DNA of 25,335 nucleotides from a virus. The notes under the pieces are model-generated. The model was not told the DNA's origin. It did no database searches and was given only the letters and a program-made list of their open reading frames with translations. Below, piece after piece: positions 679-18,306 of the stretch (its first letter is position 1; every line of letters begins with the position of its first letter). The position numbers and the translations under genes are program-made. Location: positions 1 to 25,335 of IMG/VR virus record IMGVR_UViG_3300025009_000357. The stretch is one strand, 5' to 3'.

Positions 679-3090
679 TCATCCCCATTGTCCAAGTGAC
701 CATCGAAAATCTGTTGCGTCAGGTTGCCACTTATACGGACTTGATGTTATATCCCTCTCAACAGCAGTTTCCACAGGAGTAAGTGTAATGGTTGGAGTTT
801 CGCTTGCCGTTTCAGAAGCCGTGAATGTATTAACTTCGCTTAGTGTTATCTCAACCGATTCTGCCGTTACCAAGTCAACAGTTTCATCTTCATCAACTTC
901 AATCTGGTCATTCTCTGAAAGTAGTTTTTGAAAAAATTCTATAATACCGAATAGAGTTGAAGCGAAGGTAACTTTGAAATCCATATAATCACCGTACTCA
1001 CCACCCTTGCTTGTAGATGTAACCTTCTGAATTAAGTATTGCTGATCCGTAAGTCCTCTTGCCGTATCGTTTACAGTTATCAGTTGTCCTGATTTTAAAC
1101 CTTCTTGGTCAGTCGTAAATGAGCCGTTGATAATAGCATTCGAGTATTGGTTGATTTCAGCCTCCGCGCGTGCGCGTGCAAGCTCACGACTGTCTATAGA
1201 TGTGTCCGTGATTACATCGCCGGCAAATACACCAGTACCACCGCACAATGCTTTCATCGCAAAGATTGAAGCATTATCTTGATGAGTTACTCTAATCGGA
1301 AATCTCTCTGTGTATTCAAATCTCAAGAATTGAGCCGAGGTCAATGTTGCCGTTTGGGTTGAAGCTCTAACCGATTGAGCATTATAGTTGTACATATAAT
1401 CGAATGAAGCCTCATCATCAAGATTCTCAACGCCGACAGTTTTCGCAGTCGCAAAGAATGAAATCGTATCTCCGTTGGTTTGAGAGGTCACAGCCTCGAC
1501 AGTGAAATTATCATTATCAACTTTCGTGATTTTGCGTACTGCATTACTTCGAGTCCTGTTCGTGATGTGCATTCCTGTAGTCAAGCCGTGTGCTGTAATC
1601 TTTATATTCGTTGTTGTAGTACCGGCTTCCGAGGCATGAGTTGTAGTGTTGTTATCAAGAGTGACTGCAAGATTAACGAATAGATTTTTCATAATCCATT
1701 CCCTAACCGCGCTGTCGCCTTCGACAACCTGTGAATATGTACTGTCCGAATCTTCCGTTCCACCTCTTACGGTCTGTTGATTTTTCAATAAACTTATATC
1801 AGGTTTAATCGACAGATTGTCGAAATTATCACTACTATTAGTTACATCAATTTCAAATGGTGCAGACATACTTTCTATATCGAAAAAATGTATATCTTTT
1901 TCGTAATCGATATACCAAAACTTGCTACTTAAATTCGCCAAGTCTTGAATTACGCGAGTCGGCTTTTTGAATGAGATAGGATAATTCGTAAGCGACAAAC
2001 CTTCTTCAACATTGAACATCGTGAAACTACCCTCGGCTGTAATCCTCAAGTCATCAATCTTAATCGAACTTGTTGCAGTTTCGGCGACTACAATCGCCAC
2101 ATAAGTAATCGCAGTCCATACTGGAGTGCCTGTCATTACGCCATCCTCTAATTGAACACTGTCAAAGGTATATTCACCGGACGATCCCAATGTCACCGTC
2201 GATAATAAGTAATTACTCGAATCGCTACCAATTCTTATCTTGAGTGATGTGATCTTAGTTGTATCAGTCGGATTTGCCCATAGAGTTAGATTGCCTTTGG
2301 TCGGTTGCCCCGAAGTTACACCGACAAAGTCCGAGAAGTCGCGCGCCGTTTGTGTCGTTTCCCATAGCGCCGACCCTGCCGAGTAAGTCCATGCGAATAT
2401 ACCAGCAGAATCTCCTTGCATTTCTGTTGTTATATCAAGCGTTGGATTCGTACCGTCTAAAGACTCAATCCACGCCGTTTGTATCGCACCATCATTCAAG
2501 TATTCCATGTCATCAACTTCCTTGTTGTAGTTGTTATTCTGATTGAGCTGGTCATTGATTATATACCTCGGTTCTCGATTCTCGTAAGCCGAGTTCCAAT
2601 TAGGTGCATCGAAAATCTTTGTGTAATCGTAACAGCTCACACTGTATTCAAGTATCGAGGTGTTGTGATCTATATTCGAGTCAGTTGCAGAAGAAATAAC
2701 GCCACCGAAAACCAGTTTACCCATGCGCTCACCTGTCGAGTGCGCGCTCGTGGGCGTGCTTATAGTAAGCGTTGTCGAAGACGGAACGGCGGTCACCGTC
2801 ACCTTCTCCTCTGTAGCTAATCCGATCCCCAAATACAATTCAGTACCAATCCTAAACTTGCCTGTGTCGCTATAGGTATTCGCAATCGTTATCGTATTTG
2901 CGCTGTAGTTTGCCTTCAAAGCCAAGCCGTCAAATATCTTTATATCTTGCCCTGCTGTCGGTCTTGTAACACCGGAAAGCAACTTGAAACTGCAAGTATT
3001 CGACTTGTTCTGTATCTGGTCGTCTATCTTTATCGATAGGCGGTTGAGATAGGTTGTCGTGTCTACCGAGTTTATGTAAAGATAGTACAT
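679..3090 (-). CDS. Tail hub / baseplate-like protein with inserted beta domains
   Basis: This 803-residue protein lies directly after the tape measure, where siphophages encode distal tail and tail-hub proteins. Residues 1-60 (MYYLYINSVD, with KIDDQIQNKSNTCSFKL) resemble the N-terminus of tail proteins that cap the tube. Three inserts interrupt it: about 62-122 (a small Thr/Val-rich beta module with VTVTAVPSSTTLTI), about 205-352 (jelly-roll, carbohydrate-binding-like, ending SSIKIDDLRI), and about 484-550 (an ITAHGLTTGMHI module common in phage structural proteins). The C-terminal 70 residues are a Thr/Glu/Val-rich low-complexity stretch ending in an aromatic segment (DFRWSLGQWG). The start is the ATG at 3090, adjoining the stop of the upstream gene. 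The hub role is inferred from order and size; a receptor-binding contribution from the jelly-roll insert is possible. Confidence 0.7.
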   Translation of the reverse strand: MYYLYINSVDTTTYLNRLSIKIDDQIQNKSNTCSFKLLSGVTRPTAGQDIKIFDGLALKANYSANTITIANTYSDTGKFRIGTELYLGIGLATEEKVTVTAVPSSTTLTISTPTSAHSTGERMGKLVFGGVISSATDSNIDHNTSILEYSVSCYDYTKIFDAPNWNSAYENREPRYIINDQLNQNNNYNKEVDDMEYLNDGAIQTAWIESLDGTNPTLDITTEMQGDSAGIFAWTYSAGSALWETTQTARDFSDFVGVTSGQPTKGNLTLWANPTDTTKITSLKIRIGSDSSNYLLSTVTLGSSGEYTFDSVQLEDGVMTGTPVWTAITYVAIVVAETATSSIKIDDLRITAEGSFTMFNVEEGLSLTNYPISFKKPTRVIQDLANLSSKFWYIDYEKDIHFFDIESMSAPFEIDVTNSSDNFDNLSIKPDISLLKNQQTVRGGTEDSDSTYSQVVEGDSAVREWIMKNLFVNLAVTLDNNTTTHASEAGTTTTNIKITAHGLTTGMHITNRTRSNAVRKITKVDNDNFTVEAVTSQTNGDTISFFATAKTVGVENLDDEASFDYMYNYNAQSVRASTQTATLTSAQFLRFEYTERFPIRVTHQDNASIFAMKALCGGTGVFAGDVITDTSIDSRELARARAEAEINQYSNAIINGSFTTDQEGLKSGQLITVNDTARGLTDQQYLIQKVTSTSKGGEYGDYMDFKVTFASTLFGIIEFFQKLLSENDQIEVDEDETVDLVTAESVEITLSEVNTFTASETASETPTITLTPVETAVERDITSSPYKWQPDATDFRWSLGQWG

Positions 3091-4701
3091 TTAATTTGCG
3101 AATGAGTGATTCATAAGTTCTCGAATAATTGGATCGCCAATTTTTGCAACTATATCAGCATCATCCAAAACCATAGGATTATTGATGTTGATTGTGATTC
3201 CGCCACCTCGCATTGTAGATTCATATTCTCTATTTTGTGCTACTGTCAAGACTCTCTCCCCCGGAGTAAGCATAGCCGGAACAGTGTCAGTCCCTTTTGC
3301 CTCCCATCCATTCGAAGCATATACGACACCTCCACCAGCGTAACCAGTTGTAGATACTTTACTTGTATTGATTGAAGCATACGCCTCATTCAATGCGTCT
3401 ATTTGAGCCTTTGTAGTATCAACAAATGCTTGCGTTGCCGCCGCTCTAGTATCTAAGAATAACTGATAAGCAGTATTCGCACTGTTTTGAGTCTTCGTAA
3501 TGTTATCCCACATCGTTTGAGTGATAAGTTCGATTTTAACACGAGCCTCCTCATAGGCGAGTTTCTTATCGGCTAATTGCAACATTTCTTCCTCGTAAGC
3601 GTCAATCGATGCTTGGCGTTCCTCATAGAAATTAGAAACAGCCTGCTCCAAATCAGTCATACTATTATACTGTCTAACCGCAGAAACCTCGTTACTCAAT
3701 GCCTCAATCATCTGGGCATTGGCAGTGTAAGCCGCAACCTCGGCGTCAAGTTCCGCCTGCAATTCCGCCATAGTTTCGACTGCTGAATCTATGACATCTT
3801 GGTCTTTGTCTTCCGCCGACTTCGCCATCTCCTCGTTAATTAGCGCTTGCTGTTCAGCGATATCCGCGGCTAGACTCGTTTGTTTTTCTTCCGATTCAAC
3901 TATCGCCGCCGCTAAATCTTCATTCTGCGATTGAGTTTCCTCTTGGAATTGCGCAGTCAATTCCGCCATTTCAGCACTCACATCGGCAATTGATTCCTCA
4001 ATATCAGCCATCGCTGACGAAAAAGAATCATTTAAATCCTCCATCTTATCCGTACCTGTTTTTTGTAAATCAACAAATCCCTTTTCCAAATCAGATAAAT
4101 CAGTAGAAAGGTCTTTTGTTTTTTCGCTTGCTCCTGAAGCATCACTTGAATAACCGCCATAGCTAGACCCGACACCACCAATTGCCGCCGCCGCCTCATT
4201 CGCTTCTGTGATTATATCTTCGGCAGTAGAATTCCATGTTGAAAAAGAGTCTGCGATGTCTTGAAAATCACCCTTGACACTTTCACTTGCCGCATGAGCC
4301 ACATCTCCCAAAGTTACTGAATCACTCCTTATAGCTTCAATTGTACCACCTACCACCGTGCCTAGCGTGCCAGCAGTTAGTTGAGTTATTTCTCTTGCTG
4401 TAACTAAAAAAGTCATCGCACCTTGCGCGGCTTTAATAGCCGCATACGCAAAAGATCCGAGAAATGTCGCCAATGAACTGACTGATGGCACGGCATTCAA
4501 AACCTCTGTTGTCAATACGCTTATTTCGTAAGATAGCCTCCCAACTTCTGGTCTAAGTTCTCCCTCTGAAGTATAAAAGACACTACTTAAAGCCGAAGCA
4601 TTATCTATAAAAGCCTCATTCACTAAGTTTACCGAAGGCAGTAGCAAATTACCAATTGATTCATACATATTATCAATTCGAAGCCATATTTTTAGCACCA
4701 T
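3091..4701 (-). CDS. Tail tape measure protein, C-terminal part
   Basis: This 536-residue frame continues the tape measure that begins in the upstream gene. It contains long Ala/Glu/Gln-rich helical and coiled-coil stretches (about residues 190-430). It ends with the typical tape-measure tail: YAGGGVVYASNG, then GTDTVPAMLTPGERVL, then a Gly-rich turn. Tape measure proteins set tail length and fill the tube lumen. The first codons (MVLKIWLRID) lie in a 29-nt overlap with the upstream frame. The convincing homology starts at MYESIGNLLLPSVN, whose ATG at 4668 lies 4 nt after the upstream TGA, so reinitiation there is plausible. The two parts together give about 757 residues, or a tail of roughly 110 nm at the usual 0.15 nm per residue. 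See the entry for 4673-5368 on the frame break. Confidence 0.85.
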   Translation of the reverse strand: MVLKIWLRIDNMYESIGNLLLPSVNLVNEAFIDNASALSSVFYTSEGELRPEVGRLSYEISVLTTEVLNAVPSVSSLATFLGSFAYAAIKAAQGAMTFLVTAREITQLTAGTLGTVVGGTIEAIRSDSVTLGDVAHAASESVKGDFQDIADSFSTWNSTAEDIITEANEAAAAIGGVGSSYGGYSSDASGASEKTKDLSTDLSDLEKGFVDLQKTGTDKMEDLNDSFSSAMADIEESIADVSAEMAELTAQFQEETQSQNEDLAAAIVESEEKQTSLAADIAEQQALINEEMAKSAEDKDQDVIDSAVETMAELQAELDAEVAAYTANAQMIEALSNEVSAVRQYNSMTDLEQAVSNFYEERQASIDAYEEEMLQLADKKLAYEEARVKIELITQTMWDNITKTQNSANTAYQLFLDTRAAATQAFVDTTKAQIDALNEAYASINTSKVSTTGYAGGGVVYASNGWEAKGTDTVPAMLTPGERVLTVAQNREYESTMRGGGITININNPMVLDDADIVAKIGDPIIRELMNHSFAN

Positions 4702-5368
4702 CGCCGTACTTATTTGTTAATAATTCCAGTATTTTTGTTTGCGCACCAGTTACATCTCCGAGTTCCACCATTGTTTCAATCTCATCTTTTTCTTGATCGG
4801 TTAGCATCACTCCTGCTGACTTTAAAGCCATTGTCGCATTAGTTGGCGATTCCAATGCCTTACCAACAGCCCATGCCGCTGACGACAAATCAGTACCAAG
4901 GATTGAAGCCATATCCATAGCGGCTTGTGTAGCCTGTGGGAATATATCTTTACCGATATTTGTGAATGTCAAAATTAAAGATTCCGCAGATAGAATTTCT
5001 TCATCCGTATAATTAGTAACCATCGACATAGCATTTGCAAAATCCATAGCTGATTCTGCTGTCACTCCTGCTATGCCACCAGTAGCCTCTAACACGGCAT
5101 TAAACCTCTCTTGCTCAATAGCAGACTCGCGAGCGGCATCTATTGCCGTAACTCCAAAATCATAAATTGCAGAAGCTATTTTTTTTGCGACATCAACTGC
5201 TAATTCTAAAGCCTGATTCCATAATGCTGTATTCAATGCTAAATTCGACAAACTGTTTGCAGTTGCTTCCGATTCCTTCCCCATTTCTTCCATACCCTTA
5301 TTTATACTTTCAATTTTTGCAGTAGCTTCGTCTTTCACGGCTACAATAATATCTAGATTTTCTGCCAT
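4673..5368 (-). CDS. Tail tape measure protein, N-terminal part
   Basis: This 231-residue protein starts in the usual way for a tape measure (MAENLDIIVAVKDEATAKI). It carries the conserved tape-measure block around residues 110-220: SAESLILTFTNIGKDIFPQA, GTDLSSAAWAVGKAL, LKSAGVMLTDQEKDEI, then the AQTKIL segment and KYGDGAKNMA. It stops there, in the middle of what is normally a continuous protein. The following residues expected in the family occur in the other frame of the next gene. Joining them needs a +1 shift (or one base fewer) near the A5 run at GCTAAAAATATGG. This could be a true split gene, a decayed gene, a programmed shift or a sequencing error. Leader: GTAAATAATATAAA, with no Shine-Dalgarno. 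Confidence 0.85.
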   Translation of the reverse strand: MAENLDIIVAVKDEATAKIESINKGMEEMGKESEATANSLSNLALNTALWNQALELAVDVAKKIASAIYDFGVTAIDAARESAIEQERFNAVLEATGGIAGVTAESAMDFANAMSMVTNYTDEEILSAESLILTFTNIGKDIFPQATQAAMDMASILGTDLSSAAWAVGKALESPTNATMALKSAGVMLTDQEKDEIETMVELGDVTGAQTKILELLTNKYGDGAKNMASN

Positions 5369-5374
5369 TTTATA

Positions 5375-5596
5375 TTATTTACGGAATTGAGGAGTTGAGT
5401 TTTTACTTTTATTCTTTTTCAGTCCAGCATCTATTGAATCCATGTAGAGGAATGTGTTTAAAACATATTCATCCTGCTCATCTAGTTGCGCTGGAGTCCA
5501 TCCGAACTTTTCACAGAATTTCATATCTATCCATTCCTGTGGCGCTGGGTGATTCTTTGGATAATTAAGGAATTTCTTTAAATCACCCTCTAGGCG
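5375..5596 (-). CDS. Tail assembly chaperone, frameshift-encoded T extension
   Basis: This is the 73-codon -1 frame extension of the upstream chaperone, ending at TAA 5375-5377. It has no start of its own at the beginning. It reads RLEGDLKKFLNYPKNHPAPQ, then EWIDMKFCEKFGWTPAQLDE, and ends STPQFRK. The frame is closed by a TAA shortly upstream of the slippery site, so ribosomes can only enter it in the short window that contains CCCAAAC. The product would be a 183-residue fusion (110 residues of the G part plus 73). In lambda, the equivalent gpGT binds both the tape measure and tail tube subunits, and the order here (tube, G, T, tape measure) is the same. The hydrophobic YVLNTFLYMDSID segment and the FGWTPAQLD motif fit the short helical T domains of such proteins. 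Confidence 0.85.
   Translation of the reverse strand, partial: RLEGDLKKFLNYPKNHPAPQEWIDMKFCEKFGWTPAQLDEQDEYVLNTFLYMDSIDAGLKKNKSKNSTPQFRK
5547..5588 (-). promoter_or_regulatory. Stem-loop downstream of the slippery site (frameshift stimulator)
   Basis: In the leftward RNA, GGGUGAUU (5588-5581) pairs perfectly with AAUCACCC (5554-5547), giving 8 bp around a 26-nt loop; a further U-G pair closes it. The stem begins 7 nt after the end of CCCAAAC, the spacing typical of -1 frameshift stimulators. Confidence 0.7.
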
Positions 5597-5925
5597 TTTG
5601 GGATTTTCTTGCTTGTTATTTTATTTATAGCTTTATATAACTCATCAAAATCATCTGCGAGCATGGTATCGCCATTTAAAAATTCTTCTGTTGGCTTCAC
5701 GATAGATCCATCAAGTAAAGTAAAGTGGTCAACCATATTTATAATAGCCGCTTCTTCCCCTTTGCCTTGCGAAGTCATCTTGAATCCTTTTGCGACATAT
5801 CTTTTTTTAGTATCATCCATCTCCCAAATAACATCGTCATATGTAGCCTCACTTATAAGTTTTTTAGCTTTATGCGTGAGGAAATCTTTGATTGTTGCAG
5901 TTCCGATTGATAATTTGACTTCCAT
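5590..5925 (-). CDS. Tail assembly chaperone, G product
   Basis: This 111-residue protein lies between the tail tube and tape measure genes, the position of lambda gpG. It is mostly helical and acidic (MEVKLSIGTATIKDFLTH at the N-terminus; LADDFDELYKAINKITSK near the end). A central segment (FTLLDGSIVKPTEEFLNGD) is of the kind seen in siphophage chaperones. It is expected to keep the tape measure soluble during tail assembly. Its last three sense codons, CCA AAC GCC, overlap a slippery heptamer that leads into the T extension. Start at ATG 5925; the leader AAAACACACGCAAA has no Shine-Dalgarno. Upstream, a predicted pseudoknot occupies most of the 90-nt gap to the tail tube gene and could influence its translation. 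Confidence 0.85.
   Translation of the reverse strand: MEVKLSIGTATIKDFLTHKAKKLISEATYDDVIWEMDDTKKRYVAKGFKMTSQGKGEEAAIINMVDHFTLLDGSIVKPTEEFLNGDTMLADDFDELYKAINKITSKKIPNA
5596..5602 (-). promoter_or_regulatory. Programmed -1 frameshift slippery heptamer CCCAAAC
   Basis: In the frame of the chaperone this reads C CCA AAC, a perfect X XXY YYZ heptamer. A -1 slip gives CCC AAA, then CGC CTA in the extension frame. It lies one sense codon (GCC) before the TAG stop of the 111-residue product. Confidence 0.85.
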
Positions 5926-5953
5926 TTTGCGTGTGTTTTAAGAATTAAATACA

Positions 5954-6003
5954 GGTGTGTTTCTATAGAGGGGAGTAAGGAACACACCGAAACCCTACTC
6001 CCC
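5954..6003 (-). ncRNA. Predicted H-type pseudoknot in the tail tube / chaperone intergenic RNA
   Basis: Two long inverted repeats interleave. In the leftward RNA, stem 1 pairs GGGGAGUAGGG (6003-5993) with CCUUACUCCCC (5980-5970), 11 bp including one G-U. Stem 2 pairs GGUGUGUU (5988-5981), inside the loop of stem 1, with AACACACC (5961-5954), 8 bp. The connecting loops are UUUC (4 nt), none, and UCUAUAGA (8 nt). No U-run follows, so a simple terminator is unlikely. The G-U pair would be an A-C mismatch on the other strand, so the structure belongs to this transcript. Confidence 0.6.
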
Positions 6004-6015
6004 TTATGCTTAAAT

Positions 6016-7539
6016 TTAATAAGCCGCAGTAATGTTTCTTAGCATAACTTGGATCTCTCTCTTGTCGCTTGTGTCTCTGTAAGCCGTGAAGCTGATCTCC
6101 TCATTACAGATTGCGTCCTCTGAAAGGTTTGCATTGAATGGCTGGAATCTGCAGTCCGGCATATCGAACCTTAATTTCTCAACCTCGTTTGCATCTCTAC
6201 CACCGGAGAATGCGATCTTGTTCGGATTGTCAGTTGTCGTTACATTGCCAGCACCAGTTGAAGTTGCACTAACACCTGTGAGCGCCGTAATCGCAGAAGC
6301 AACTGTCGCGACTGCATTGTTGGCAGGCGTAGCATCGAGAGTGACTGTTATCAGTTTACCAGATACTGCTGCCGCTAATGGAGTCGTACCCTGCACAAAC
6401 TCAACAGCCCAATCGTTGCCAGCTTCACCCACAGCATCAACCGTAACCGTGATTGTACCAACGCCATCGCTTTCAATCGTGCCAGTAGCGGCGGCGGCGA
6501 CATTAGTATCAAGCGTTGCTCCGCAGAACTCGAATCTAATTGCTGTCTGCTCCATCTGTCTTAACACATCAAGGTTTAATGGATTGACATAGAAGTTCGA
6601 GAATGTTCCCGTAACCTCAACGCCTTTAACCAAGATATTGGAAGGCATTCTATCAACAACATCACATCCCGTTGCCGCCCATCTTGCCTCAAGGTCATTC
6701 TTGATTGACAATTTGAAGTCTTCACAGTTCGTAACTGTTGATAGGTTTTGCATCCCGTCAGCTCCGTTGTACATATAAACCGAAGCGCCTCCCGAGAAAA
6801 TCAATTCGTTACTTAAGCTGTAAGTTGGAGTCTGTTTCTTGATGACGGCAATATCACCAACCTCGATACTCACGCCGATCGTAGAAACAACAAGGACTGT
6901 TTCACTTGTGACTGTTGTGACTGTAAGTTCGCAAAGCTCTGTTGTTGGATTATCCTTGTCTAGGATTATGATCGTGTCGCTACCTGCTACAAGTCCGGAA
7001 GTCTGGTCTAAAACAAGAGCCGTGCCACCGGAAGCGGCTGTTGTAACTCTTGCGTTTTGGAATACCTTTTGAGCTGAAAGTGCGATTGCCGCTTGCAATT
7101 TATTATCTGCAATCGAAAAATCAATACCAGCAACTCTCGTTCCAATAAATCTCTGTACATAAGAACTACCTGCTATAGGTATATCCATCGTATAGGTTTT
7201 GAGCGTAGTCGCTGGCGAGAACTTATGCTGATAAGATACTGAAGCTAATAGCGTGGTATCTGTCGCTACACCGAAAACGCCAGTTAACCAGTGACCTAAT
7301 GTCTTTGGCTCTGCAAGAACTGTTACTGAACCATTGAACGGCCCGACTTTGTTCTTGATAGGTCTAAGATTTTTCGACCTATTCCCTGCTATTGTATTCG
7401 CAGGCGTGAAATCCCAATTAGAAACCATACTCTCTGAAAGAAGCTCGTGCGCTACATTAGGATAAAGCGCCGTGCCTGCTGTCGATTCCTTGATAGTCAT
7501 CAAGTACGCCAGTTTCGAGTATTTTGTTGCGTCAGACAT
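6016..7539 (-). CDS. Major tail tube protein with inserted beta domains
   Basis: This 507-residue protein precedes the tail assembly chaperone, as the tail tube gene does in lambda-type phages. The N-terminal part (residues 1-160) has the tube-protein pattern: KESTAGTALYPNVAHELL, NTIAGNRSKNLRPIKNKVGP, TLGHWLTGVFG. It is much longer than a usual tube subunit (roughly 150-300 residues). Two inserts account for the excess: about 168-235, a Thr/Val-rich beta module ending in a hydrophobic GDIAVI turn, and about 350-449, an Ig-like or adhesin-like beta domain (TGTIESDGVGTITVTVDAVG). These probably project from the tube surface. The C-terminus returns to the core (EEISFTAYRDTSDKREIQVML). Start at ATG 7539 after leader TATAACCAAATTCAAAG. 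Confidence 0.8.
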   Translation of the reverse strand: MSDATKYSKLAYLMTIKESTAGTALYPNVAHELLSESMVSNWDFTPANTIAGNRSKNLRPIKNKVGPFNGSVTVLAEPKTLGHWLTGVFGVATDTTLLASVSYQHKFSPATTLKTYTMDIPIAGSSYVQRFIGTRVAGIDFSIADNKLQAAIALSAQKVFQNARVTTAASGGTALVLDQTSGLVAGSDTIIILDKDNPTTELCELTVTTVTSETVLVVSTIGVSIEVGDIAVIKKQTPTYSLSNELIFSGGASVYMYNGADGMQNLSTVTNCEDFKLSIKNDLEARWAATGCDVVDRMPSNILVKGVEVTGTFSNFYVNPLNLDVLRQMEQTAIRFEFCGATLDTNVAAAATGTIESDGVGTITVTVDAVGEAGNDWAVEFVQGTTPLAAAVSGKLITVTLDATPANNAVATVASAITALTGVSATSTGAGNVTTTDNPNKIAFSGGRDANEVEKLRFDMPDCRFQPFNANLSEDAICNEEISFTAYRDTSDKREIQVMLRNITAAY

Positions 7540-12670: not shown

Positions 12671-12706
12671 AAGTTTTTTAGGTTAGACAATCAGACAGTT
12701 ATATAA

Positions 12707-12751
12707 TGACCTTATGGCGACTCACCTCGTAAGATGAGCCGCGTAAGACCA
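12707..12751 (-). ncRNA. Long RNA hairpin directly after the stop codon of the 85-residue gene
   Basis: In the leftward RNA, GCGGCUCAUC (742-733 of 12xxx) pairs with GGUGAGUCGC (726-717) over a UUACGA loop, 10 bp with two G-U pairs. After a 1x2 internal loop, the outer arms UGGUCUUA and UAAGGUCA pair for 8 more bp, two of them G-U. The hairpin starts at the base after the TAG stop. No U-run follows. Confidence 0.55.
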
Positions 12752-13009: not shown

Positions 13010-13036
13010 GTGTGTTTTATATTAAGAAATAAAAGC

Positions 13037-15022: not shown

Positions 15023-15051
15023 AGAAAAAGGTTAGTGTGTTTTTAAATAAA

Positions 15052-17602: not shown

Positions 17603-17631
17603 TAGAGACCCGGAATTATTCCGAGCCTCTA
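17603..17631 (-). terminator. 13-bp hairpin whose triloop is the Com-like gene's stop codon
   Basis: In the leftward RNA, UAGAGGCUCGGAA (17631-17619) pairs along its whole length with UUCCGGGUCUCUA (17615-17603), with two G-U pairs. The loop is UAA, the stop codon of the Com-like gene. Only UUU follows the stem before GC, so it is a weak intrinsic terminator at best. A translational or RNA-processing element is as likely. Confidence 0.55.
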
Positions 17632-17762
17632 AGAGCTTCTTGGTCGAGTGTGTTTAACTTATTGATTTTTTTGCATCGACTACACTTCACTTCTATTATG
17701 CTCTTTTTTGCCAAAAAGCACAAGCACAAAAGTTTACCACACTTACACCGGAACTCACTCAA
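17616..17762 (-). CDS. com: Mu Com-like zinc-ribbon protein
   Basis: This 48-residue frame is too short to be obvious but is clearly of the Com type. It reads (TTG)SEFRCKCGKLL near the start, then IIEVKCSRCKKINKLN, matching Mu Com (a 'RCK..KLL' knuckle and a 'E-[IV]-[RK]-C-x-RC' knuckle). The four zinc ligands would be Cys6/Cys8 and Cys27/Cys30; the first knuckle has C-x-C instead of C-x2-C. In Mu, Com binds the mom mRNA and turns on its translation. No mom gene is seen here. The start is a TTG overlapping the upstream stop (TTGAGTGA), so translation is probably coupled to the membrane-protein gene. The stop codon is the loop of a strong hairpin, which could allow autoregulation. The start codon is less sure than the gene. 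Confidence 0.75.
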   Translation of the reverse strand: MSEFRCKCGKLLCLCFLAKKSIIEVKCSRCKKINKLNTLDQEALRGSE

Positions 17763-17973
17763 CGATTGTCGTGTTGTTAATAACCCATCGTGCAAAGTAG
17801 TGAATTGTTAAAGGCATTACGAACATCGCACCGATGATAGTCAAAGACGCTAGCAGATTGATTAAAGAGAACAGTGCCGTCCACAAGAACAAGTGCCAGT
17901 AGTTACCGTTATACTGTAACTTGGCTACGCGAGGGGCTTTGACTTCGCGCGATTGGTGGTTTTGTGCCTCCAT
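17755..17973 (-). CDS. Small membrane protein
   Basis: This 72-residue protein has a basic N-terminus (MEAQNHQSREVKAPRVAK) and two hydrophobic segments (about 26-46, WHLFLWTALFSLINLLASL, and about 47-63, IIGAMFVMPLTIHYFA). The ending, ARWVINNTTIVE, faintly recalls DUF898 proteins. The frame's earlier ATG at 18036 would overlap the upstream gene more. The ATG at 17973 has the leader TTAACACCAAAAAA and overlaps it by 49 nt. A holin would have a similar size, but the site between portal and protease is not usual for lysis genes. The function is unknown. Confidence 0.65.
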   Translation of the reverse strand: MEAQNHQSREVKAPRVAKLQYNGNYWHLFLWTALFSLINLLASLTIIGAMFVMPLTIHYFARWVINNTTIVE

Positions 17974-18290: not shown

Positions 18291-18306
18291 GTGTGTTTTT
18301 TTTATT

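Follow-up and report, generated by a model that had tools for sequence, protein, structure and literature searches.

A conserved pseudoknot upstream of phage tail assembly chaperone genes, with a possible second partner for its loop strand at the start codon

A 25,335-nucleotide stretch of viral DNA (IMG/VR record IMGVR_UViG_3300025009_000357, hereafter the window) encodes an H-type pseudoknot in the RNA between its tail tube and tail assembly chaperone genes. Comparison of related and of cultured phages provides good support for this fold as real and conserved: stem 1 (S1) has 9-15 bp in most members and stem 2 (S2) has 5-10 bp, and the pairing is kept while the sequence changes. As to its role, we lean towards an element of the chaperone leader that controls translation in cis; its loop strand would choose between an upstream partner and a copy of that partner near the start codon. 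Phages need many tail tube subunits and few chaperones. The tube:chaperone ratio, beyond the known frameshift, is unexplained in these phages, and a conserved RNA at the chaperone start is a direct candidate for setting it.

Results

The minus strand of the window is a late operon with neck and tail genes, the tail tube gene, a 90-nt gap, the chaperone gene and the tape measure gene (Table 1). The 507-aa product of the upstream gene has no match in PHROG or Pfam and is named tail tube because of its position and a weak profile match to annotated tail tubes (hhalign probability 36.8%, E 0.00036, 64 columns). Its stop codon occupies 6018-6016 on the minus strand, and the gap to the chaperone gene runs over 5926-6015. 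The 111-aa ORF that follows is also without a match in PHROG and Pfam and is taken as the chaperone because of its place and its -1 frame extension with a slippery heptamer. This extension is open in 8/8 homologous chaperone loci, and a heptamer lies in the overlap in seven of them, L030 being the one without. The tape measure gene of the window is split at 4679 (genes 3091-4701 and 4673-5368) by a 23-bp deletion, called against the otherwise identical relative IMGVR_UViG_3300025073_000104.

Table 1. Features of the tube/chaperone junction in the window
Feature	Position	Strand	Description	Basis
S1 5' arm	5993..6004	-	AGGGGAGUAGGG	Sequence; covariation in relatives
L1	5989..5992	-	UUUC	UUUC before or at the S2a start in 4/5 window-group members
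S2 5' strand (S2a)	5981..5988	-	GGUGUGUU, in the S1 loop; two possible partners	Sequence, pairing scores, duplex energies
S1 3' arm	5969..5980	-	CCUUACUCCCCU	Sequence
L3	5962..5968	-	CUAUAGA, 7 nt	Sequence
S2 3' strand (S2b)	5954..5961	-	AACACACC, upstream partner	Sequence, pairing scores
Leader copy	5931..5938	-	AAACACAC	Sequence, duplex energies, repeat test
Upstream gene	6016..7539	-	507 aa	Tail tube by position and weak profile similarity
Chaperone gene	5590..5925	-	Tail assembly chaperone, short (G-like) form, 111 aa	Directly precedes the tape measure gene; -1 frame extension
Chaperone AUG	5923..5925	-	No Shine-Dalgarno sequence upstream
Slippery heptamer	5596..5602	-	C CCA AAC, close to the short-form end	Sequence
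Open -1 frame	5375..5620	-	Would extend the chaperone (G-T like form)	Sequence

Read from the minus strand, the leftward (coding) RNA can form an S1 of 12 bp (6004-5993 with 5980-5969, one G-U pair) whose loop, 5992-5981, consists of UUUC and the S2a strand; the latter pairs perfectly over 8 bp with S2b (5988-5981 with 5961-5954). The loop lengths are those of an H-type pseudoknot, with 4 nt in L1, none in L2, where S2a directly abuts the 3' arm of S1, and 7 nt in L3, and the entire element lies 3' of the tube stop codon, inside the gap. The first-pass annotation, made from the window alone, had described two interleaved stems with an 11-bp S1 and a single pair that is G-U in the leftward RNA only. 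Both descriptions hold: 11 bp is the length of S1 if the outer A-U pair is left out, and G5995-U5978 is the sole wobble of the stem and becomes A.C on the plus strand. Plain secondary-structure folding returns S1 only, as expected because the program used cannot draw pseudoknots. The element is present as a single copy in the window, which rules out a repeat or mobile element.

To ask how often such a fold arises by chance, we used a scripted score that sums a hairpin and the pairing of its loop to a downstream strand. The 90-nt gap of the window scores 50, against a mean of 26.9 (sd 3.7) for dinucleotide shuffles, and the junction is the best of 1052 segments of 96 nt along the minus strand of the window.

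Relatives were sought by tail-tube peptide scans of IMG/VR, which yielded 10 contigs besides the near-identical one; L026 and L029 stop short of the junction, 8 reach it and, as L030 and L031 are alike, 8 distinct junctions are available with the window included. The tubes of these relatives are 45-67% identical to that of the window (L036 over 92 residues only), and 45-78% identical within this window group. The near-identical relatives L002, L003 and L005 are uninformative for covariation, and L004 was rejected as a false match to a terminase-like region. Scans of genome contigs found no relative, nor did tblastn searches of cultured phages with the tubes of the window, L025, L028 and L030, with the L035 chaperone or with the window ORF 679-3090.

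The pseudoknot is kept with changed letters in five of the eight distinct junctions (Table 2), and each of the five outscores every other pseudoknot site on the contig stretch scanned (204 to 1052 segments). The other three have a hairpin only: L028 combines an 11-bp hairpin with an S2 of just 5 bp (1/300 shuffles, z 1.9) that is not convincing, L036 has a junction hairpin without a partner strand, and L030 has a different hairpin with no convincing S2 (2/300 for another geometry). When S2 was scored alone, with S1 fixed and the upstream segment shuffled, L025 was the one member not significant. In a swap test the own S2b was the best partner of each loop strand in all five rows. Covariation in relatives had been set beforehand as the check that could refute the fold; compensatory changes that support both stems were found, those in S2 coming mainly from the window group through the swap test, and the structure survives.

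Table 2. Pseudoknots of the window group, with shuffles scoring as well and energies of the two pairings of the loop strand
Member	S1 (5'/3' arm)	S2 (S2a/S2b)	Whole pseudoknot, of 300	S2 alone, of 5000	S2 / loop:leader duplex (kcal/mol)	Leader copy	Repeat reached, of 3000
Window	see Table 1	see Table 1	0	69	-10.4/-9.0	8 nt	25
L024	GGGGCUGGA/UCCAGCCCC	CGUGUUUU/AAAACACG	0	44	-7.0/-6.4	8 nt	100
L025 (record G003)	CGGGGGAGGA/UUCUCCCCCG	GUUUGGG/CCCAAAC	0	927	-8.6/-8.3	5 nt only, ending 6 nt before AUG	1720
L027	AGGGUGGUUGGG/CCCAGCCACCCU	UGCAUGUUUU/AAAAUAUGCA	0	52	-8.7/-9.7	11 nt	0
L035	bulged stem, ~14 bp	AGUGUGUU/AACACACU	2	123	-8.7/-8.9	10 nt	6

The tubes of L024 and L027 are sisters (78% identical, bootstrap 97) but stand next to chaperones from separate families (no match at E 1), a combination that suggests replacement of the chaperone gene. 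Loop, S2b and leader also differ jointly between the two. No history is drawn from the remainder of the tube tree because its other branches are poorly supported (bootstrap 16-40). The fold spans two chaperone families without convincing mutual similarity.

We extended the comparison to 30 cultured-phage records, reached through capsid, terminase, tube and chaperone matches, of which 27 have a readable junction (those of L037, L050 and L056 are unreadable). The fold is found in 13 of the 27: Roseobacter CRP-6, Dinoroseobacter R5C, DSS3_MAL1, Erythrobacter XM05 and L02, Brevundimonas Papperlapapp and Bajun, Sphingobium Lacusarx, Citromicrobium RXM, and Caulobacter Ccr29, phiCbK, CcrBL1 and CcrBL10. 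We take the hosts of all 13 to be Alphaproteobacteria, that of MAL1 not being named in its record. Tested on the 130 nt that precede the chaperone, 11 of these 13 phages score above all 200 shuffles. The two weak cases are MAL1, where 20/200 shuffles are as good, and Papperlapapp, whose fold lies 101 nt from the start, beyond the 130-nt test stretch. For L02 this test picked another S1, and the fold described here is the top one when L3 is limited to 14 nt. A scan for short L3 places the top site at the junction in 13/13 cultured stretches; in R5C that site uses a different S2b from the 8-bp GACCCGAC partner 57 nt away, and apart from this phage (57) the cultured L3 measures 5-11 nt. No fold was found in the other 14 readable junctions: Pasteurella AFS-2018a (a U-tailed terminator hairpin), FP_Mushu, VPv64, PMBT14, Vibrio 033B, Epa19, BUCTT11, ST16-OXA48phi5.1, DMCA (where the gap is that to the tape measure gene), SLUR25, VBv52, RcTitan (hairpin only), PW916 and lambda, with its 15-nt gap between V and G.

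Pairs of S1 were counted by script, since MAFFT placed the arms of ten S1 hairpins out of register. The count covers 12 distinct cultured junctions, phiCbK being omitted because it duplicates Ccr29. All pairs are standard except one outer pair in CRP-6, and the numbers of standard pair types at positions 1 to 10 from the loop are 3, 4, 4, 5, 3, 3, 2, 4, 2 and 3. Because the cultured phages share the loop core UCGGG together with its partner CCCGA, the stem that covaries among them is S1, and the evidence for covariation of S2 comes from the window group, from CRP-6 and from R5C.

Under strict thresholds, 41 loci were scanned, amounting to 357,520 bases per strand with some overlap. Of 19 matches on the coding strand, 16 fall at the tube/chaperone junction, or 15 of 18 if the near-identical L005 is set aside. 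The three matches away from the junction are in L028, L047 and L055, and L035 and RXM fall below the thresholds. The scan also matches the opposite strand, in some cases over the same junctions. Further strong hairpins or pseudoknot-like sites occur near the junctions of alphaproteobacterial phages, in L047 (2661-2704 region and 3109-3164) and, far upstream in the gap, in L049 and L065 (Ccr29 and phiCbK).

The wobble pairs identify the strand. Those in the stems of the window, L025, L027, L028, L035 and CRP-6 pair as G-U in the coding RNA, whereas the opposite strand would have A.C mismatches there, which indicates that the coding RNA is the molecule under selection and rules out an antisense-strand structure. 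The spacing in turn points to the gene. In the window group S2b ends 24-28 nt before the AUG in 5/5 members, though L3 varies from 5 to 17 nt, and S1 starts 6-11 nt after the tube stop in the five pseudoknots. For 11/13 cultured phages, S1 begins 57-82 nt ahead of the chaperone start, and the distance from the tube stop to S1 in the cultured set ranges, by subtraction, from about 15 to about 234 nt. Because the spacing is held to the chaperone start and, in the cultured phages, is variable to the tube stop, we assign the element to the chaperone start.

Of the five window-group pseudoknots, four have a copy of S2b close to the start codon, as do 8 of the 12 distinct cultured junctions. In the window, AACACAC (5937-5931) can form 7 bp with the loop strand and ends 5 nt before the chaperone AUG (5925); in the window, L024, L027 and L035 the copies end 2 to 5 nt before the AUG. 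In L027, loop, S2b and leader copy are all unlike those of the window yet match one another, in an exact 11-nt repeat that no dinucleotide shuffle reached. The two pairings available to the loop strand differ by no more than about 1.4 kcal/mol in 5/5 window-group members. In four of the five phages the loop finds its best match, among the leaders of the contig, in its own chaperone leader. In the window that leader ranks second of 23, behind the one of a 65-aa ORF (start 15022), which pairs slightly better (-9.8 versus -9.0 kcal/mol). Against shuffles the window copy is modest (362/5000 by pair score, 40/1000 by energy).

Leader pairing of at least 5 bp is seen in the cultured phages CRP-6 (where it ends at the AUG), XM05, Papperlapapp, Ccr29, CcrBL10, Lacusarx, L02 and RXM, with modest shuffle fractions of 0.054, 0.006, 0.033, 0.10, 0.10, 0.024, 0.051 and 0.23, respectively. 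No pairing of this length was found in R5C, MAL1, CcrBL1 and Bajun (fractions 0.97, 0.87, 0.93 and 1.0). In Lacusarx, L02, RXM and CRP-6 a Shine-Dalgarno-like AGG lies between the two copies. The first-pass annotation had proposed that the loop strand could pair with the AACACAC leader instead, as a switch hiding or exposing the start. The joint change in L027, the near-equal energies in 5/5 members and the copies in 8/12 cultured junctions speak for such competing partners, and the absence of the copy in 4/12 and the modest statistics of single phages speak against them.

Discussion

How the two pairings might be used can be outlined in a model in which we infer both the switch and its trigger. 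The loop strand would by default pair with S2b, which is made first and is nearer, leaving the start region open. Were that pairing lost or outcompeted, the loop strand would pair with the leader copy and the start would be covered, and chaperone synthesis could in this way be kept at a low, fixed level compared with that of the abundant tail tube. The balance might be tipped by ribosomes finishing the tube gene, by a virion protein or by plain equilibrium. We favour a general trigger, based on structure or on the ribosome, over recognition of a sequence by one protein, because the letters of stem and loop and the chaperone families vary and the layout stays.

Among other readings, an operator bound by tube, chaperone or another virion protein, which would repress chaperone translation, has a phage precedent in T4 gp32, which represses its own mRNA in this manner (PMC3014915). 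The tube product is conserved in the window group and the element adjoins its gene, and the direct repeats could be two binding sites, the leader copy then being the second site or a chance match. Stem and loop letters that differ widely next to unrelated chaperone families are a poor fit for a sequence-specific binder, so we regard this operator as unlikely; a protein might recognize shape alone. We give a little less credence again to a pseudoknot that raises translation of the chaperone through coupling to that of the tube gene, the leader copy serving only to tune it. What recommends this reading is the repZ gene of plasmid ColIb-P9, whose translation depends on a pseudoknot upstream of the ribosome binding site (PMC8383071), together with the start of S1 6-11 nt after the tube stop in the window group, roughly where a terminating ribosome would presumably touch it. 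That contact is not constant, with S1 about 15 to 234 nt after the stop in cultured phages.

The same spacing weighs on the suggestion, made in the first-pass annotation beside translational control, that the element governs stability. Read thus, the hairpin would stabilize the 3' end of the abundant tube mRNA or serve in its processing by RNase, and S2 would add stability only. Strong hairpins exist even without S2 (L028, L036, L030 and RcTitan), and no hairpin followed by a U-run was found in 5400-6600, which rules out an intrinsic terminator there. We judge stability control less likely, indeed improbable, because the spacing of the cultured folds follows the chaperone start and not the tube stop; moreover, S2 is kept by compensatory change, and an element of this kind needs no S2b copy at the start codon. 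That the tube gene ends in a signal for frameshifting or stop-codon readthrough is scarcely credible. A candidate AAAUUUA does end 6 nt before S1 of the window, but it lies partly over and partly past the stop codon, outside the tube frame; more in-frame stops come after (TAA ATT TAA in the window and in L024, TAG TAG in L035), and the tube C-terminus falls at the same residue in relatives. With the heptamer beyond the stop and not in the zero frame, a -1 frameshift signal at this position is rejected. The control element with a choice of partners is the reading we carry forward.

Known systems resemble the junction pseudoknot in part. The pseudoknot of T4 gene 32, which gp32 binds, is located within a region 67 nt ahead of the start (PMC3014915). 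The present fold resembles it in being of the H type, in standing in the leader of a phage mRNA a few dozen nucleotides before the start and, in the window group, in having an A+U-rich stretch from the pseudoknot to the start. It differs in its place at the tube/chaperone junction, in the start-codon copy of the partner strand and in having GC-rich members, and its downstream ORF is a frameshifting tail chaperone rather than a single-strand binding protein. Translation of repZ of IncI-alpha plasmids needs a pseudoknot with which an antisense RNA competes (PMC8383071). Common to both are the position upstream of the ribosome binding site and the competition for a loop strand, but the repZ competitor is an antisense RNA whereas the competitor proposed here is the leader itself. 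We know of no antisense RNA at the tube/chaperone junction pseudoknot. The rpsO (S15) pseudoknot, named as a translational operator beside gene 32 in PMC3014915, shares the role proposed here. It belongs to a bacterial ribosomal-protein gene. To our knowledge the rpsO operator is without a duplicated partner strand.

The programmed frameshift of phage tail chaperones (G/GT) concerns the same gene, in which extension and heptamer are found as given above; its signal lies at the 3' end of the short form, unlike the pseudoknot, which is upstream of the start. The window group is without Shine-Dalgarno sequences, like Bacteroidetes, in which mRNA structure tunes initiation (PMC6847099).

A search of Rfam 15 (4227 families, gathering threshold) gave no match in the window, in 7 window-group loci and in 6 cultured loci. 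For the position, the gene, the spread and the duplicated partner strand, we found no description in Rfam or in the literature searched, subscription journals and bioRxiv lying mostly outside it, in keeping with the first-pass statement that such an element is not described. Leader pseudoknots themselves are known, and what appears new here is one with a putative competing copy at the start. We tentatively suggest, with less than even confidence, that such folds could form a widespread class of cis-regulatory RNA in phages that has yet to be described. Its members would be pseudoknots with two states, metering the chaperone in phages of very different hosts and with any chaperone family. If true, it would be a second phage leader pseudoknot and one present in many phages. 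The fold occurs in phiCbK, a laboratory phage of Caulobacter crescentus, and is thus directly testable.

Other features of the window concern its leaders and small ORFs. A short TTG-start ORF on the minus strand (17616-17795) has paired CxC and CxxC cysteines and, in our estimation, resembles a small zinc finger such as Com of phage Mu; Pfam gave no match to it at E 0.01. AACACAC recurs on the minus (coding) strand at 13010-13016, 15035-15041, 18291-18297 and 17648-17654, twice inside leaders of non-chaperone genes; the two strands of the window together have 9 matches against 3.26 expected. The leaders of the genes starting at 7539, 12670, 15999 and 16419 (minus strand) are short A/T-rich gaps with a recurring TAACC about 15-20 nt before the start codons, which may be a promoter or initiation element. 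Another structured-looking gap, at 12671-12751, has a long imperfect hairpin in the coding RNA.
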